Of a stretch of DNA of 39,321 nucleotides, positions 20,763 through 34,881 are shown piece by piece. Made by a program: the position numbers and the translations under genes. Positions within the stretch are counted from its first letter, which is position 1. Every line of letters starts with the position of its first letter. Under the pieces are notes generated by a model. The model was given only the letters and a program-made list of their open reading frames with translations. It ran no database searches and was not told the origin of the DNA. This DNA comes from Nitrospira sp. (lineage in GTDB: Bacteria > Nitrospirota > Nitrospiria > Nitrospirales > Nitrospiraceae). The stretch spans positions 29,758 through 69,078 of the forward strand of contig PLBR01000149.1 in assembly GCA_003135435.1 (NCBI GenBank). Reading direction: 5' to 3'.

Positions 20763-22415
20763 TCATTCGTCTTTGGCAAGCAACTTGTATTCGATGCTGT
20801 CCGCCAATGCTTGCCAGCTCGCTTCCATGATGTTCTCAGACACGCCGACGGTGCCCCATTTATCCTTATGGTCGCCTGATTCGATCAATACCCGGACCTT
20901 GGACTCCGTCCCACGATTGGCCGACAGCACCCGCACTTTATAGTCGAGCAGTTTGACTTCTCGGAGCTGGGGATAGAACTTTTCCAATGCTTTCCGCAAC
21001 GCATGGTCGAGTGCATTGACCGGACCGGCTCCAATTGCCGCCGCATGTTCCACCACGTCGCCGACCTTCACCATCACTGTGGCCTCCGACGACGAAGCTC
21101 CCTGGTCCTGTTTTTTCTCGACAATCACCCGAAAGCCCAGGAGTTGGAAAGATGGCCTGTGCGTCCCCATCGCTTTCCGCATGAGCAATTCGAAGGAGCC
21201 TTCCGCTGCCTCAAATTGGTAGCCCTCACTTTCACGCTCCTTCAAGGTATCGATCAGTTCCCGCACCTTGGCGTGGCCCTTGTCCAATTTGATCCCGTAG
21301 GCCTCGACCTTCTCCAGTAACCCACTCCGACCTGCCGCATCCGATACCAACATACGCTGGCGGTTCCCGACCAACCCTGGGATCACATGCTCATAGGTCG
21401 CGGGATTCTTGAGCACCGCATGAATATGGACCCCACCCTTATGGGCAAACGCCGAGTCCCCCACATAGGGCTGGTGCTTATTAGGCATGAGGTTCGCGAT
21501 CTCGGTCACGAATCCCGACACCCGTTTAAGATGGCTCAAACGGTCTCCCAAGGCTGGACGTTTCATCTTCAGTTCAAGATTGGGAATGATCGAACAGAGA
21601 TTGGCGTTGCCGCACCGCTCGCCGATCCCGTTAATCGTCCCTTGCACTTGCACCACGCCGGTTTCAACCGCCACCAGCGAATTCGCAACGGCCATTTCGC
21701 AATCGTTGTGGGCGTGAATCCCCAAGGGCACCGCACACTCCCGCCGAACGACCTGGCAAATCTCTTTGACTTCCCAAGGCATCGATCCGCCATTGGTGTC
21801 GCAGAGAATCACCCGTTCGGCTCCGGCCGCGGCGGCTTGACGAATGGTCTCCAGTGCGTAGTCCGGATTGGTCTTGTATCCGTCAAAGAAATGCTCCGCA
21901 TCGTAGAACACCCTTCGACCTTTCGAGCGGAGATGGGCCACGGAATCGCTGATGAGTTCGAGATTCTTCACAAGGGAAATGCCGAGCGCATCGGTGACGT
22001 GCAGCGTCCAGGTTTTTCCGAAGAGCGTGATGATCTTGGTCTCTGCATCCAGCAACGCCCGGATATTGGAATCCTTCTGTACCGCGTTGCTCGCTTTTCT
22101 GGTCGACCCGAACGCCACAACCGTCGCCGACTGCAACGGGACGGTCTTGATCATTCGAAAGAACTCGATGTCTTTGGGATTCGCCCCGGGCCACCCGCCT
22201 TCAATGAACTGCACGCCCAGCCCATCCAACTGTTGGGCGACCCGAACCTTGTCTTCGGCCGAAAAGGTGACATCTTCGGCCTGGGCCCCATCCCGTAAGG
22301 TCGTGTCATAGATTTCCAGCGCTGCTGGCCGTGCGACAGGAGGAGGTGCACCGGACGACATAGAGCCGATCGGCTTGCCTTGTGAGGATCCTGGTTGTGA
22401 AGATTTTCGAGCCAT
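20763..22415 (-). CDS. cimA: (R)-Citramalate synthase
   Basis: This 550-residue enzyme condenses pyruvate with acetyl-CoA to citramalate, the first step of the threonine-independent route to 2-oxobutanoate and isoleucine. The TIM-barrel HMGL-like domain shows LEIYDTTLRDGAQAEDVTFS near residue 34, FIEGGWPGANPKD, the metal motif GIHAHNDCEMAVANS and GTINGIGERCGNANL. A LeuA-type C-terminal regulatory domain occupies the last 150 or so residues. The DGAQAEDVTFS form and GGWPGANPKD are typical of CimA rather than LeuA or homocitrate synthase. The ATG at 22415 was chosen because earlier codons overlap lysC; it carries a 30-residue low-complexity leader, and a later ATG (about residue 19) is possible. 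It is the last gene of the amino-acid operon. Confidence 0.9.
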   Translation of the reverse strand: MARKSSQPGSSQGKPIGSMSSGAPPPVARPAALEIYDTTLRDGAQAEDVTFSAEDKVRVAQQLDGLGVQFIEGGWPGANPKDIEFFRMIKTVPLQSATVVAFGSTRKASNAVQKDSNIRALLDAETKIITLFGKTWTLHVTDALGISLVKNLELISDSVAHLRSKGRRVFYDAEHFFDGYKTNPDYALETIRQAAAAGAERVILCDTNGGSMPWEVKEICQVVRRECAVPLGIHAHNDCEMAVANSLVAVETGVVQVQGTINGIGERCGNANLCSIIPNLELKMKRPALGDRLSHLKRVSGFVTEIANLMPNKHQPYVGDSAFAHKGGVHIHAVLKNPATYEHVIPGLVGNRQRMLVSDAAGRSGLLEKVEAYGIKLDKGHAKVRELIDTLKERESEGYQFEAAEGSFELLMRKAMGTHRPSFQLLGFRVIVEKKQDQGASSSEATVMVKVGDVVEHAAAIGAGPVNALDHALRKALEKFYPQLREVKLLDYKVRVLSANRGTESKVRVLIESGDHKDKWGTVGVSENIMEASWQALADSIEYKLLAKDE

Positions 22416-22473
22416 ATAGGAAACGATACCAGGAGCAGAACAACCCTGTCGAGACTCACAGCGCCGAAATCTG

Positions 22474-23715
22474 CTACTTCTTGATTCGGCCCCCTGCCGG
22501 CGACTGATCCAACCCGAACGCGGTGTGGAGCGAACGCATCGCGAGCTCGACATACTTTTCATCGATGACACAGGAGATCTTGATCTCCGACGTGCTGATC
22601 ATAAGGATGTTCACGCCTTCCTGCGACAAGACCTCGAACATCTTGGCGGCGACTCCCGAATGAGAACGCATCCCGACGCCGACCAGCGAGACCTTCGCGA
22701 TCGCCTCGGTCACGGCAACCGATTTGGCCGCGATACCGTTTGCCACGTCCTGAATCAGCGGCAGGGCTTTCTTGATGTCTGCCCGTGGAATCGTGAAGGA
22801 AATATCTGTCAGGCCCGACTGACTCATATTCTGGATGATCATGTCGACATTGATGTTGGCCTTGGCCACCGGCCCGAAGAGTTTGGATGCAATACCTGGT
22901 TTGTCCGGCACGCCCACAATCGTGATTTTGGCCTGATTCCGATCACCGGTGACTCCCGACACCGCGACCGCTTCCATATCCTCATCTTCACGCGTCACGA
23001 GCGTCCCCTTTCCTTCTTTGAAGCTGGAGTTTACCTCCACTGGCACATTGAACTTCGCGGCAAATTCGACGGAGCGGCTCTGCAGCACTTTGGCGCCCAG
23101 ACTGGCCATTTCCAGCATTTCCTCATAGGAAATCTTGTCGATTCGCCGAGCCGCCGGCACAATGTTGGGGTCAGACGTGTAGACGCCATCGACGTCGGTA
23201 AAAATGATGCACCGATCAGCCTTCAGCGCAGCCGCCAGCGCGACGGCTGTGAGATCGGAGCCTCCGCGCCCCAACGTCGTGACATCCGACTGCTCGTTGA
23301 TCCCTTGAAAACCGGCGACCACTGGAATGACCCCATTGAGCAAGGCCTCGCGGATTCGATCGGCACTCACACGGGTAATACGCGCTTTCGTATGGGCACT
23401 GTCGGTCATGATCCCGACTTGGCGTCCTGTAAAGGATTGGGCATCGAGTCCCCGGGCCCGCAAGGCCATCGCCAACAAGGCGATGGTTACTCGCTCTCCG
23501 GTCGACAGCAGCATATCGAGTTCGCGATCGTCCGGAAGCGGCGTGACGTTATGCGCCAACCGAAGCAACCGGTCCGTTTCTCCGCTCATCGCGGACAAGA
23601 CAACCACGACGCGATGGCCATCCTTATGAGCCTTCTCGACGCGGTCGGCCACGCCGTGGATCCGCTCGATCGTGCCCACGGACGTCCCCCCATATTTCTG
23701 AACAATCAGCGCCAC
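22474..23715 (-). CDS. lysC: Aspartate kinase
   Basis: This 413-residue enzyme phosphorylates aspartate, the entry step to lysine, threonine and methionine. The kinase domain shows [10 protein letters not shown] at the start, [31 protein letters not shown] and [13 protein letters not shown]. Two C-terminal ACT domains follow ([17 protein letters not shown] and [19 protein letters not shown]), so allosteric feedback by lysine and/or threonine is expected. The GTG start at 23715 lies five bases after the apgM stop. The ribosome site is the AGGA in the end of apgM, slightly far. The length is standard. Confidence 0.95.
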
Positions 23716-23720
23716 GTCCG

Positions 23721-24962
23721 TCAGGATCCTTTTGCGAAAAGTCGCACCACGAACTTCGTCGCATCACGAGGGGGCACGGTCGAGGCCCGAGCATCAGCCT
23801 CGGTAAATCTCCGTCTGGCCCCAACAGCGGGGGCTGCCGCACTGTCACGATAGGCGAAGAACCCCGGACCTTCCGCCGCCTGTCCCTGATGCACGTTGCC
23901 CGAATCGCAGAAAGCCACGATGCGATGGGATCCCAATTTGGCCAACCCTTCGAGCAGCGGCCCTACCAGCTCGCGATCGACCGTTTCGATACCCTTCACC
24001 TTGGCCGCGACATCCGACCCGTAGGCGACCTCGTCCGGTAACTCCATATGCACGTATGCAAAATCATTTTTCTTCAGTTCCTCCAGGGCAACCGCCGCTT
24101 GGGTGCAAAGATCCGCACCGGCCAATCGCGCGCCGTCCACCGCTCCGAGCCCGGCCATGATGCCGAGTCCGCGATGGACATCGCTCTGTGAGACCACCAC
24201 ACCGGACATCTTCAATCGCTCAGAGAGGCTTGGCCAGAGAATGGCCCGGCCTTGGCCCCAGAGCCAGAGACAATTGGCCGGCTTCTGCCCCGCCACACGA
24301 CGTTCATCGTTGAGGGGATGATCGCGCAAGATCTGAAACGAGGCGTCCATGAGTTCCCAAAGAGTGTCGGATCCGTCTCCCGTCGGCAACGCATCGGCGA
24401 TCGGTCGGCCAACCAATAATTGTGGATCGATACAGACCGCTCGCGACTTCCCGTTGACCCACACCATGAGATGACGGTGGCCTAACCCGGGATAGAACTG
24501 AATCATCTCCGACCCGAGTTGTTCATTGATCGCCTCGATCAATTCGCGGGCCTCTTCTGTCGAAATCAGCCCAGCGGTCGCATCGTCCATCACCACGTGC
24601 GGTCCGAGCTTCTTGATCTCGTTCAATCCGCCTTTACTCCCGGACTGGGCATCTGCCCGCAACGTGACCATCGTACAGCGATAGACCACATCATGCTCGC
24701 CGACGGCAACCCCCAGACTGGCCGCTTCGAACGGGCCAGGCCCCTGGTAGTATTTCTTGGGGTCGTATCCGAGGATGGCGGTTCCCATCAGACCGCTCCC
24801 CTGTCGCACGTTCTCAGGCCCCGCGGCCAGGAGCCCAAGCTCCCCACCTTGCGCGAGGCGATCTAGGTGAGGGGTCGAAGCCGCTTGAAGAGGAGTCCGT
24901 CCGCCCAATTCCTGCCGGGGATGGTCTGCCATCCCATCGGCATGGAGAATCACGTGTTTCAT
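23721..24962 (-). CDS. apgM: ApgM-like phosphoglycerate mutase/proposed homoserine kinase
   Basis: This 413-residue member of the archaeal-type cofactor-independent phosphoglycerate mutase family belongs to the alkaline phosphatase superfamily. It shows HADGMADHP (Asp9), [15 protein letters not shown] (candidate nucleophile Ser56), [11 protein letters not shown] and GLGIMAGL. A subgroup of this family sits beside hom and thrC in genomes lacking ThrB and has been proposed to act as homoserine kinase. The context here (hom, thrC, this gene, lysC; no thrB) fits. Two expected metal ligands look changed: the usual DExGH reads DEVAY (310-314) and the usual PDH reads CDS (352-354). Catalysis by the standard two-metal mechanism is therefore doubtful. 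The gene is intact with normal length and starts at ATG 24962, 22 bases after thrC. Confidence 0.8.
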
Positions 24963-24984
24963 CGAGGCCCTGCTCGCATGGTGT

Positions 24985-26043
24985 CTACACCCTTAAAAGA
25001 CGAGCGACATCCTCCCGCGTCGCTCTAACGGTTTTCGGTTGGGCCGATACACTGATGGCAGTGTCGGCATCTTTCAATCCATGACCGGTCAAGGTGCAGA
25101 CCACGGTCTCGCCTTCACGCAGTCCGCCTTGCTTGCTCAACTTCATCACGCCGGCAACCGACGCGGCGGACGCCGGCTCGCAGAAGACCCCTTCCGTCGC
25201 CGCGACCGCCCTATAGGCCTGCAAAATCTCTTCATCCGTCACCGAATCGATCGCTCCCGCGGATTCCTTCACGGCATTCAAGGCCGCTTCCCAGCTGGCT
25301 GGATTGCCGATCCGGATCGCCGAGGCCACCGTCTGCGGATTCTCCACGATGCGGCCGAGCACGATGGGCGCGGCACCGGCCGCCTGAAATCCGACCATGC
25401 GAGGCAGCCTCGTGGATTGATTGGCCGCACGGTATTCCTGGTACCCCTTCCAATAGGCGGTAATATTGCCAGCATTCCCAACCGGCAGCATATGAACAGT
25501 TGGAGCATCGCCGAGCTGATCGCAGACCTCCATCGCGGCGGTTTTCTGCCCCTCGATCCGATAGGGGTTGAGCGAGTTCACCAGCTCGATGCCGTGGATC
25601 ACTGACAATTCCTTCACAATGGCCAAAGCCTGATCGAAGTTTCCTTCGATCTGGATGACGGTGGCTTGGTGCATCATGGCCTGGGACAGCTTACCCATCG
25701 CGATCTTTCCGGCAGGAATCAACACATAGACAGCCAGTCCCGCCCGCGCACCATAGGCCGAGGCAGAGGCGGATGTATTCCCCGTGGAGGCGCAAATCAC
25801 CGCCTTGGCGCCGGACTCAACGGCCTTTGAGATAGCCATCGTCATGCCGCGATCCTTGAACGATCCCGTCGGATTCATGCCTTCGAACTTGAGATAGAGA
25901 TCGATACCGGGAGCGATCTGCTTGGCCAGCCGCGTCGCCCTAATGAGCGGAGTGTTACCTTCACCGAGTGTCACCACGGGGGTACGTTCGGTCACCGGCA
26001 GAAACTTTCGATATTCTTCGATCACACCACGCCAGCGATTCAT
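24985..26043 (-). CDS. thrC: Threonine synthase
   Basis: This 352-residue PLP enzyme of fold type II converts O-phosphohomoserine to threonine and phosphate. It shows [30 protein letters not shown] (Lys of SFKDRG binds PLP), [19 protein letters not shown], the phosphate-binding [15 protein letters not shown] and [12 protein letters not shown]. The length matches the short bacterial class. ATG 26043 lies four bases after the hom stop, indicating one operon. Its substrate needs a homoserine kinase, and none of the ThrB type is seen in the window. Confidence 0.94.
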
Positions 26044-26047
26044 CGCA

Positions 26048-27361
26048 TCACTCGTCCTTGCCCTCGACCCGGATCAAGGTGGTGGGCTCGGAGATGAAGG
26101 CCATGCGATTGATCGCTCGCAATGCCGTTTGGACATCGCGCTCCGTGGCGGTATGGGTCTTGATCACGACCGGAACCGTTTGCCCTTCGCGTCGTCCCTG
26201 TTGGAGGACGGACGAAATACTAATACCGCACCGGCCCAGCTCCCCTGCGATTTGCGACAAGACACCGGGACGGTCCAGCACCATAAAACGGAGGTAATAG
26301 AGCGAGCTGATTTCTTCCATCGGCCGCATCCGAAGCGGACGACGCTGGTCCTGCTGGAACGAGGCGGGCGGCACTCGCCCAACCGCTCCTTTCAACAGAT
26401 TGCGCGCGATAGCGATGAGATCGCCGACCACCGCACTGCCGGTCGGCAGGGACCCCGCACCCCGGCCATAGAGCACCACGTCGCCCACGGCATCGCCGAC
26501 GAGTTGAATTGCGTTGTAGACTCCTTCGACTTGGGCGATCGGAGACGAGGAGGGCAGCATCGTGGGATGCACTCGGGCTTCGACTTCGTTGCCAACCAGC
26601 TTGGCAATGCCCAGCAGCTTGATCGTACAACCGAACTCTTTGGCGTACGCGATGTCAGTCGGCGTAATATGGGTGATCCCCTCGGTGTATACATCTTTAA
26701 AGTTGACCGGTATTCCATAGGCCAGCGCCACCAGGATCGCCAGCTTGTGGGCCGAATCGATACCGGCCACATCGAATGTCGGATCCGCCTCGGCATAACC
26801 GGCCTGCTTCGCTTCGTCGAGTACCGTCTCAAAACTCTGGCCCTCATGGGTCATGCGCGAGAGAATGTAATTGGCCGTCCCGTTGATGATTCCATAAATG
26901 GATTGGATGGTGTTGGCCGCCAGCCCTTCCCTCAATGCCTGGATGACGGGAATCCCCCCTCCTACGCTCGCTTCAAAACCTAGGTCGACGCCCTTGCGGG
27001 AAGCCGCAGCAAATATTTCTTCTCCGTGTAACGCGAGCAAGGCCTTATTGGCGGTGACGACATGTTTGCCTGCCGCAATGGCCTCGAGAATTATGCGTTT
27101 GGCAATATCGCAGCCCCCGATCAACTCAACGACGATGTCGATCGACGGATCGGTGAGAATCTGCTTCGCATCGGTTGTGAGTAGGCCAGGCGGCAGGGTA
27201 AGATCTCGGTCACGTGTCACATCGAGGTCCGCAATCCGAACGATCTCGATCGGCACACCAACCCGGCGGTTGATCAAAGCGGCATTCTGCAAGAGAATCT
27301 TCGCGACACCCGTCCCGACCGTTCCGAACCCAATGATGCCTATGCCAACCCGCGAGATCAT
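26048..27361 (-). CDS. hom: Homoserine dehydrogenase
   Basis: This 437-residue enzyme reduces aspartate semialdehyde to homoserine. It shows the N-terminal NAD(P)-binding site [28 protein letters not shown] and the catalytic domain with [15 protein letters not shown] and [22 protein letters not shown]-terminal ACT domain starts near 355 ([21 protein letters not shown]) and probably mediates threonine feedback. The ATG at 27361 overlaps the upstream stop in an ATGA. This is the monofunctional form, with aspartate kinase encoded separately as lysC in the same operon. Confidence 0.95.
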
Positions 27362-28554
27362 TCTTCCGATCCCTCAAGCTTCAAGGCCTTGCGGATGCCT
27401 CGAACGGCTTGCCTCGTGCGATGTTCGTTTTCAACGAGACCGAACCGCACATATTCGTCCCCGCCTTCACCAAACCCGATCCCGGGAGACACGGCCACTT
27501 TAGCCTCACGGAGCAGAAGCTTCGAAAACTCCAACGACCCCTGAGACCGATAGGGCAGCGGGATTCTGGCCCAGACGAACATGGTAGCCACGGGCTTGTT
27601 CACTTGCCATCCGATGCGATTCAGTCCGCTCACCAACACATCACGACGCTTCTGGTACCGCAGCACCGTCTCCTTGACACAATCTTGCGGTCCATTGAGG
27701 GCAATGACGCTGGCAATCTGCAGAGGTTGGAAAATACCGTAATCCAGGTAGCTCTTAATCTTGGCCAAGGCCCCGACAACCTCGCGATTACCACAACAGA
27801 AGCCCACGCGCCAACCAGGCATGTTGTAGGCCTTGGAGAGGGTATAGAACTCGACGCCGACTTCCTTGGCCCCGGGAACCTGCAGGAAACTCGGCGCCTT
27901 ATATCCATCGAACACCAAGTCGGCGTAGGCCAGGTCATGAATGACAATCACGTTATGCTCTTTGGCAAAGGCGACGATTTTCTTAAAAAACTCAAGATCC
28001 ACCACGGCGGTGGTGGGATTATGCGGAAAATTGATGACCAAGATCTTGGGCCGCGGAAAGGTCTGGCGATAGACCCGTTGTAAGTCGTCGAAGAAGTCAC
28101 TGTCCTGACGCAACTCAATCCCTCTGACCTCTCCCCCCGCAATGATGAAACTATACATATGAATGGGATAGGTCGGCGTCGGCGTCAGGACGACGTCGCC
28201 CGGACCGATCAAGGCCAGCGCCAGATGTGCCAACCCTTCTTTGGAGCCGATCGTGACGATGGTCTCGGTCTCAGGATCTAGATCGACATCGTAATTCCGC
28301 TTGTACCAGCCCGCGATCGCATGTCGCAGCTTCGTAATCCCGCGCGAGGCCGAGTAGCGATGATTTTTTCCCTTCCGCGCCGCCTCGATCATCTTCTCGA
28401 CGATATGGCTCGGCGTCGGTTGGTCAGGATTTCCCATCCCGAAATCGATAATATCTTCGCCCTGTTGACGGGCTTCGAGCTTGAGGCTCTGCACCTGGGC
28501 AAACACATAAGGCGGTAGTCGCTTGATGCGATAAAATCCGTCGCCTAATCCCAT
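27358..28554 (-). CDS. alaC: Class I/II PLP aminotransferase (AlaC-like), first gene of the amino-acid operon
   Basis: This 398-residue fold-type I aminotransferase shows [40 protein letters not shown] and the PLP lysine in [17 protein letters not shown]. Its closest known group by these motifs is AlaC/YfdZ, which makes alanine from pyruvate and glutamate; methionine or other aminotransferase activity has also been suggested for relatives. DapL (LL-diaminopimelate aminotransferase) is related but less likely. The ATG at 28554 has AGGGGA four bases upstream. Its leader holds the 15-bp inverted repeat at 28575-28621. Co-transcription with hom is shown by the ATGA overlap. Confidence 0.85.
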
Positions 28555-28574
28555 CGGGTCCCCTGCCGGTAATT

Positions 28575-28621
28575 CCCCTGACAGGGAGGCGTGAAGAAAC
28601 CACCCTCCTCCCTGTCAGGGG
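28575..28621. repeat. 15-bp perfect inverted repeat at the operon start
   Basis: The arms cccctgacagggagg (28575-28589) and its exact complement (28607-28621) are separated by 17 bases. It lies 21 bases ahead of the aminotransferase ATG and reaches the predicted transcript start near 28619. No T-run follows on either strand, so it does not look like a standard terminator. An operator dyad or a 5'-end RNA hairpin are the main options. Confidence 0.75.
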
Positions 28622-28625
28622 GTCT

Positions 28626-28655
28626 ATTCTAATGGCAGCTGGCGTATCGAGTCAA
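28626..28655 (-). promoter_or_regulatory. Sigma-70-type promoter of the aminotransferase-hom-thrC-apgM-lysC-cimA operon
   Basis: TTGACT (28655-28650) and TAGAAT (28631-28626) each miss one base from consensus, and the spacing is 18 bases. The predicted start is near 28619, about 65 bases before the first ATG, right at the edge of the inverted repeat. The remaining spacer to pdxJ (28656-28838) shows no clear plus-strand promoter. Confidence 0.65.
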
Positions 28656-28838
28656 ATTATGTCGTGATTCTATGGGGTTCGGTATTCCGACCCTTCGGAC
28701 TGATTGAGACAACAGGCTATCAACTCCCCCTCCCGGTCCTTGCCCCACCCTGTTGATTTCTGTTACAACTGCAACGCCTTTCGCTCTCATCATGCAACTC
28801 AGTTTCTCCTTGCTCCACATAGCCAGAACGGAGGATCC

Positions 28839-29552
28839 GTGCCACGACTTGGGGTGAACATCGACCATGTGGCCACGTTGCGGCAGGCCCGTGGTGGAAC
28901 CGACCCGGACCCCCTTACCGCCGCAGTGCTGGTAGAATTGGCCGGCGCCGACGGCATTGTCGTCCACCTCAGAGAAGATCGGCGGCATATTCAAGACCGC
29001 GATCTTCGCCTTTTGCGGGAACTCATCCGCACCAAGCTCGATCTGGAGATGGCCGCCGATGAGACAATGGCCAAAATTGCCTTGACCATAAAACCGGACA
29101 TGGTCACGCTCGTCCCAGAACAGCGTCAGGAACTCACGACCGAAGGCGGCCTCGACCTGGCCGGCCACAGAGATCGTATCCAGCAGGTCGTGGCCCTGCT
29201 CCACGACGGCGGCATTCCCGTCAGTCTCTTTATCGAACCGGATTTGGCACAGGTCAAAGCCGCGCACAGAATCTCAGCGGATTTCATCGAGCTCCATACT
29301 GGCCGCTATGCGAATGCCCTGCGCGCGAAAGAAGCCGATGCGGAAGCGGAAGCTATTACACAGGCCGCGAAGCTCTCCTACAAACTCGGAATGGGCGTCA
29401 ATGCCGGGCACGGCTTGGACTATCGCAACGTGACGCGGTTGCGGCATATTTCTGAAATCGTCGAGTACAACATCGGCCACAGCATCATTGCCCGAGCGGT
29501 TCTGGTGGGCCTCGACCAGGCCGTTAGGGAGATGAAAGCGTTGCTGAGTTGA
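28839..29552 (+). CDS. pdxJ: Pyridoxine 5'-phosphate synthase
   Basis: This 237-residue TIM-barrel enzyme condenses 1-deoxyxylulose 5-phosphate with 3-amino-2-oxopropyl phosphate to pyridoxine 5'-phosphate. It shows [18 protein letters not shown] at the start, [50 protein letters not shown] and [15 protein letters not shown]. The start is GTG 28839 with GGAGG about four bases upstream; the frame is open earlier, but those codons do not match the family. It belongs to the deoxyxylulose-dependent vitamin B6 route. It is followed after 145 bases by nnr; the acpS gene often found between them is not present. Confidence 0.95.
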
Positions 29553-34847: not shown

Positions 34848-34881
34848 AAGGGCGGCATCCCCTTTCGGAGATGCCGCCCTT
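34848..34881. terminator. Bidirectional-type terminator between mutS and the secreted-protein pair
   Basis: The perfect 12-bp stem aagggcggcatc / gatgccgccctt has a ten-base loop. On the minus strand it is followed by TTTTTATTT, giving a strong Rho-independent terminator for the gene ending at 34903. For mutS on the plus strand the stem is the same but the T-run is weak. Confidence 0.85.

Follow-up and report, generated by a model that had tools for sequence, protein, structure and literature searches.

Several bacterial mRNAs carry a stem-loop at or near the 5′ end that leaves the ribosome site free, among them ompA and papA of E. coli and aprE of B. subtilis. In these stem-loops it is the structure and its place that matter, not the letters. 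The leader of an amino-acid operon in Nitrospira resembles them in both respects. A hairpin at a place fixed relative to the promoter is conserved in relatives though its letters change, a pattern of conserved structure and unconserved sequence that becomes weaker in thinned tests, and the ribosome site lies outside the stem (mean unpaired probability of 0.63 in the window, i.e. the whole 39,321-nucleotide stretch of DNA that was analysed). The locus differs from ompA, papA and aprE in its host, a Nitrospira with a nuclease set of its own (homologues of RNase E/G and RNase Y are encoded in the genome, both over cut-off) and in standing before a biosynthetic operon. According to a review that cites the papers on ompA, papA and aprE (PMC3997798), RNase E cuts faster at an accessible 5′ P end than at a base-paired one, and the Bacillus pyrophosphohydrolase requires at least two unpaired 5′ nucleotides.

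The predicted hairpin is encoded by a dyad in the 284-bp gap that separates two divergent genes: pdxJ on the + strand, for which a start at 28839 was assumed, and, on the − strand, an aminotransferase gene starting at 28554. The latter belongs to the alanine transaminase/LL-DAP aminotransferase family (27358–28554; NF006033, 654.6 bits against a cut-off of 647) and is the first gene of an operon. It is followed on the − strand by hom, encoding homoserine dehydrogenase (26048–27361; NF004976), thrC, encoding threonine synthase (24985–26043; TIGR00260), an apgM or putative homoserine kinase-type gene (23721–24962; TIGR00306 with 325.4 bits against a cut-off of 320, TIGR02535 below cut-off), an aspartate kinase gene (22474–23715; NF005155) and cimA (20763–22571; TIGR00977). 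Given this gene content downstream of the dyad, the description as a threonine/isoleucine operon in a first-pass annotation of the same DNA is fair. The operon as a whole (20763–28554, − strand) brings the threonine genes together with the citramalate synthase encoded by cimA, an enzyme of the threonine-independent isoleucine route.

The promoter proposed by that annotation, TTGACT-N18-TAGAAT, looks real: the −35 element TTGACT (28650–28655, − strand) and the −10 element TAGAAT (28626–28631, − strand), separated by an 18-bp spacer, both precede the gene in 31 of 31 sequences of the genus. TTGACT followed by TA[GAC]AAT, with a spacer of 17 or 18, also precedes the gene in all 56 sequences of the groups g2/g6/g19 and in all 10 of a set defined by 88% identity. 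At other, mostly outer, loci the promoter pattern was found in 21 of 64, where the pattern demanded TTGAC plus a −10-like hexamer and near variants were scored as absent. The transcript is predicted to start at 28619 (− strand), 7 nt past the −10 element, and the best folding offset lies at about the same spacing in two genome groups. No Nitrospira transcript-start data came up in a literature search. From the promoter to the start codon the leader measures 71 nt. An inverted-repeat scan and folding place the 5′ arm of the hairpin first in the transcript (28607–28621, − strand) and the 3′ arm at 28575–28589. Between them lies a 17-nt loop region (28590–28606), inside which the MFE fold predicts a further 4-bp apical stem (28600–28603 with 28591–28594). 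If the RNA starts at 28619, the two outermost base pairs lie upstream of the start and the transcript contains 13 of the 15 pairs. About 10 nt downstream of the hairpin (about 15 bases in the earlier estimate) comes the ribosome site AGGGGA (28559–28564, − strand), which is purine-rich.

Two further features of this promoter were observed. The stretch between the −10 element and the predicted start (28618–28625, − strand) is GC-rich and conserved, reading AGGCCCC in most of the genus, and resembles GC-rich discriminators, a feature of stringently controlled promoters. Just upstream of the −35 element, the block GAACCCCAYAGAATCAC (28664–28680, − strand) is present in 30 of the 31 genus sequences and 23 of the 56 g2/g6/g19 sequences, and is absent from the 88%-identity set. 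It is single-copy in the genome except for one match with 2 mismatches. Its possible identities include a binding site for an activator, an upstream promoter element and a portion of the pdxJ promoter, which points the other way.

As first described, the dyad is perfect: its arms, that at 28575–28589 having the sequence CCCCTGACAGGGAGG, are 15 bp each, 100% reverse-complementary and 17 nt apart. It is the longest of the four perfect inverted repeats in the window with arms of at least 10 bp and loops of up to 40 (15, 12, 10 and 10 bp). Among 40 first-order Markov resamples that preserved the dinucleotide composition, the longest arm reached 14 bp in one and 15 bp in none. A genome-wide check for many copies at unrelated sites, which the first-pass annotation had named as a refuting observation, found that the dyad occurs once: the 47-base pattern, at up to 3 mismatches, has no second copy in the 4.34-Mb genome. 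Since it is single-copy, the dyad is not a dispersed repeat, and a mobile element was likewise ruled out. An intrinsic terminator or attenuator was also rejected; downstream of the 3′ arm the sequence reads AATTACCGGC, and the lack of a T-run (U-run in the RNA) after the dyad noted earlier holds for the downstream sequence. A terminator is further ruled out because the flanking genes diverge, so that no gene ends at the dyad. Elsewhere in the window, a near-perfect 15-bp inverted repeat with a 4-nt loop (34848–34881) lies between converging ORF ends (34846 on the + strand, 34903 on the − strand) and is probably a bidirectional terminator.

Perfect symmetry over the +1 region, with each arm nearly palindromic by itself as read from the sequence, would suit a DNA operator. 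A repressor would then bind at the start, either to the dyad as a whole or to its two CCCTGWCAGGG half-palindromes, which are spaced 34 bp apart; an amino-acid-responsive repressor had been suggested on first reading. The locus shares with operators of start-site dyad symmetry the perfect dyad at +1; here, however, it is present in a single copy and its sequence is not conserved. Genome-wide, CCCTGWCAGGG (0 mismatches) was found only at the two arms of the dyad. Upstream of the related operons, where the same dyad was to be sought, the promoter hexamers are invariant (31/31) but the perfect 15-bp dyad is confined to the window species (1/31), the longest in the other 30 sequences being 4–10 bp. 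Even the relative G023, whose protein is 99% identical, keeps the left half of the dyad and differs in the right half. The hairpin of the window species appears to be an exceptionally perfect version of one that is more interrupted in its relatives. In G023 the hairpin is kept through G-U pairs with the DNA dyad broken (−27.7 kcal/mol on the sense strand, −15.3 kcal/mol on the antisense strand), which is what one would predict if pairing in the RNA, G-U included, is what matters. Because the RNA hairpin in G023 outlasts its DNA dyad, and because the dyad is not conserved, a sequence-specific operator appears unlikely, and we find repressor binding at the start scarcely credible. Across the genus, the sense and antisense folds do not differ significantly (p 0.14–0.83 over offsets, clusters); in g2/g6/g19 the sense fold is the better one at offset 8 (p = 0.03), the antisense fold at offset 0 (p = 0.003).

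Folding was compared across several sets of relatives. The genus set comprises 31 sequences, of which 28 entered the fold tests; those excluded were two near-duplicates of other sequences, L023 and L025, and L030, whose hairpin is deleted. Within the family, 163 of 175 genomes gave a match, which after subtraction of the 30 of the genus leaves 133 outside it, and 60 leaders were fetched from these. L038–L047 were assigned to g2/g6/g19 by identity alone. The 88%-identity set (also g26; n = 10) includes one g22 genome (L166), and L048–L051 were placed in it by identity alone. After the whole-leader z step, testing continued without L171–L175, which come from other genera.

The leader of the window folds with −39.2 kcal/mol (z −3.15), a value matched by only 1 of 200 shuffles. 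Over the whole leader the signal in relatives is weak, with z −0.85 for the 31 genus sequences and −0.03 for an outer set of 70. Because the whole-leader z was diluted, the fold window was cut to the first 47–50 nt, a choice made after the whole-leader z had been seen, and g2/g6/g19 served as a second group. In the genus (28 of 31 sequences), nucleotides 7–53 past the −10 element have a mean z of −1.75, with 17 of 28 sequences below −1. Control stretches of the same loci gave mean z values of +0.41 for coding nt 1–50, −0.05 for coding nt 101–150, −0.37 upstream of the −35 element and +0.69 for the promoter.

To locate the signal, a 47-nt window was moved in 12-nt steps over 13 offsets and z was averaged over clusters of similar leaders. 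The sole clear dip in the genus starts 6 nt past the −10 element (12 clusters, z −1.65, p = 7 × 10⁻⁴). In g2/g6/g19, where the leaders differ in sequence from those of the genus, the sole clear dip lies at the same 6-nt spacing (30 clusters, z −1.04, p = 4 × 10⁻⁵). Both dips hold after correction for the 13 offsets. No comparable dip before the start codon was seen in control regions upstream of pdxJ, yjeF and a pilB/gspE-like gene, the lowest values being −0.56 at −147 for pdxJ and −0.85 at −7 for the pilB-like gene (a window that is mostly coding); when windows were positioned relative to the start codon and not the promoter, the dip of the operon itself had a z of −1.20.

The same spacing emerges from the predicted stems. 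When the RNA is taken to start 6 or 7 nt past the −10 element, a long stem with at most 3 free 5′ nucleotides is predicted in 79% or 82% of genus sequences (n = 28) against 47% of shuffles, and in 51% or 56% of g2/g6/g19 sequences against 30% or 32%. At offset 4 neither set exceeds its shuffles (39% against 45% in the genus). The window sequence would have 0 free nucleotides before the stem at the predicted start of 28619. Hence, the fold signal and the usual distance from −10 to start both indicate the same start. The hairpin does not extend to every relative. None was found in the 10 sequences of the 88%-identity set (z +0.49), and the genus member G025 (L030) has a 33-nt leader from which the hairpin is deleted with the promoter intact, a natural knock-out for comparison. 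Together with the weak whole-leader z, this loss and the 88%-identity set without a hairpin indicate an element that is common but not universal.

Is base pairing itself selected? Swapping the left and right halves of the hairpin between species makes it 2–3 kcal/mol weaker in distant pairs (permutation p = 2.5 × 10⁻⁴ on 28 sequences, in a test that ignores relatedness). In clade-thinned swap tests the median p was 0.016–0.14 with L001, the window sequence, and 0.02–0.37 without it, hence the support for coevolution is modest. RNAalifold found no central helix over all 28 sequences, since the pairing register slips between clades. This slip also blunts column-wise tests, and the sequences were therefore split into two sub-alignments. 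In A2 (11 sequences), a 7-pair inner helix named from single-sequence folds has 92.2% of cells paired, compared with 26–71% in slid versions, and 5 double-change cells compared with 1.7 in shuffles, among them U-A to C-G and C-G to U-A; RNAalifold on the 11-sequence set picked another register. In A3 (17 sequences), the helix was taken from RNAalifold and has 88.2% of cells paired with 3 double-change cells, a count exceeded by two slid versions (6 and 4). As regards compensatory changes in the arms, a check advised by the first-pass annotation, double changes were found in A2, and support is weaker in A3 and in the thinned sets.

These tests bear on the possibility that the hairpin has no function under selection. 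Hairpins would form easily wherever a C-rich discriminator and start region, kept for DNA reasons, is followed by G-rich sequence, and the perfect arms of the window species would have arisen by drift or by an inverted duplication due to chance. Conservation at the DNA level in the genus does cover the promoter and the C-rich stretch behind it, and a C-rich leader start kept for such reasons could mimic part of the fold signal. The weak thinned coevolution tests, the loss of the stem in one genus member and its absence from the 88%-identity set are in keeping with this. Such an origin does not readily account for perfect 15-bp arms, which arose in 0 of 40 resamples, for a dip at the same spacing in two groups with different leader sequences, or for paired double changes in relatives, and we consider it unlikely.

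RNAalifold on the 28 sequences reports one helix alone, 4 pairs between the 5′ end and the ribosome site, of which one has changed on both sides, from C-G to U-A, in 4 sequences. This might reflect a regulated leader, in which the 5′ CCCCUG alternatively pairs with the ribosome site CAGGGG and an amino acid, a protein or the ribosome shifts the balance and so controls translation; such control makes sense for a gene that heads a biosynthetic operon. However, the swap test gave no coevolution for the helix (p 0.87, 0.80), and a start rich in pyrimidines will pair with whatever purine-rich ribosome site it meets. Furthermore, for an RNA that starts at the predicted +1, the probability that its 5′ end is paired to the ribosome site is at most 0.10 in 27 of 30 sequences, the others giving 0.21, 0.38 and 0.40. 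RNAalifold also pointed to a switch involving the 3′ arm and the ribosome site, which was dropped as unsupported by the swap test. The window contains 0 Rfam matches at gathering score, those at E ≤ 5 being at chance level. With peptide attenuators, T-boxes and riboswitches the locus shares a structured leader before threonine/isoleucine pathway genes; unlike amino-acid operon leaders of these kinds, it is 71 nt long and has no terminator-like U-run, conserved core or Rfam match, and no leader peptide was seen in it. For the new leader-type control element suggested earlier, coevolution gave no support to a ribosome-site switch, and neither a U-run nor a leader peptide was evident on reading the sequence. 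On balance, we regard a regulated leader as rather improbable.

The hairpin starts at the predicted +1 and would be complete by about +45, and as a nascent structure it might affect promoter escape or pausing and not decay. With no U-run after it, and with the sequence past the hairpin varying between relatives, an early-transcription signal of this type seems highly improbable to us.

What is kept at this locus is shape and distance from the promoter, with no sequence core; a ligand or protein site would normally retain some letters. This pattern fits a 5′-terminal stem that hides the 5′ end. Of the roles listed in the first-pass annotation, a 5′-end stabilising stem agrees best with position and folding that are conserved and letters that are not, from which we infer a function as a protective 5′ stem. 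Transcription would begin at about 28619, and the first ~45 nt would fold into a single long hairpin with almost no free 5′ nucleotides, the ribosome site remaining outside. The hairpin would hide the 5′ end from 5′-end-dependent decay (entry by a pyrophosphohydrolase or an RNase E-type enzyme), and the long biosynthetic mRNA would thereby be kept stable. A second possible role is that the hairpin keeps the leader off the ribosome site; the modelled folds are compatible with a C-rich 5′ end held away from that site by the hairpin. We put at about an even chance the proposal that the dyad is the DNA of a 5′-terminal stem-loop, fixed in position and free in sequence, that probably shields the mRNA 5′ end from decay. 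More tentatively, and with less confidence, the hairpin may have stayed in step with a single fixed promoter ahead of an aspartate-family operon in several Nitrospira-type genera, as a fast-evolving, sequence-free element selected only for its shape and its distance from +1. It would have become near-perfect in the window species, possibly locking the leader in a form with the ribosome site free.

Among titles and the beginnings of abstracts in Nitrospira-related literature, no paper on this operon leader was found. If the proposal is true, selection can act on the shape and position of a 5′ stem and leave its sequence almost free to change, and ordinary motif or Rfam searches would consequently miss such stems. 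Folding z-scores phased to a conserved promoter would be a simple way to find leaders of this kind in uncultured bacteria, and would also lend support to predicted transcript starts. For Nitrospira itself, the stem would give a first clue to how such a bacterium preserves the mRNA of a core amino-acid operon.
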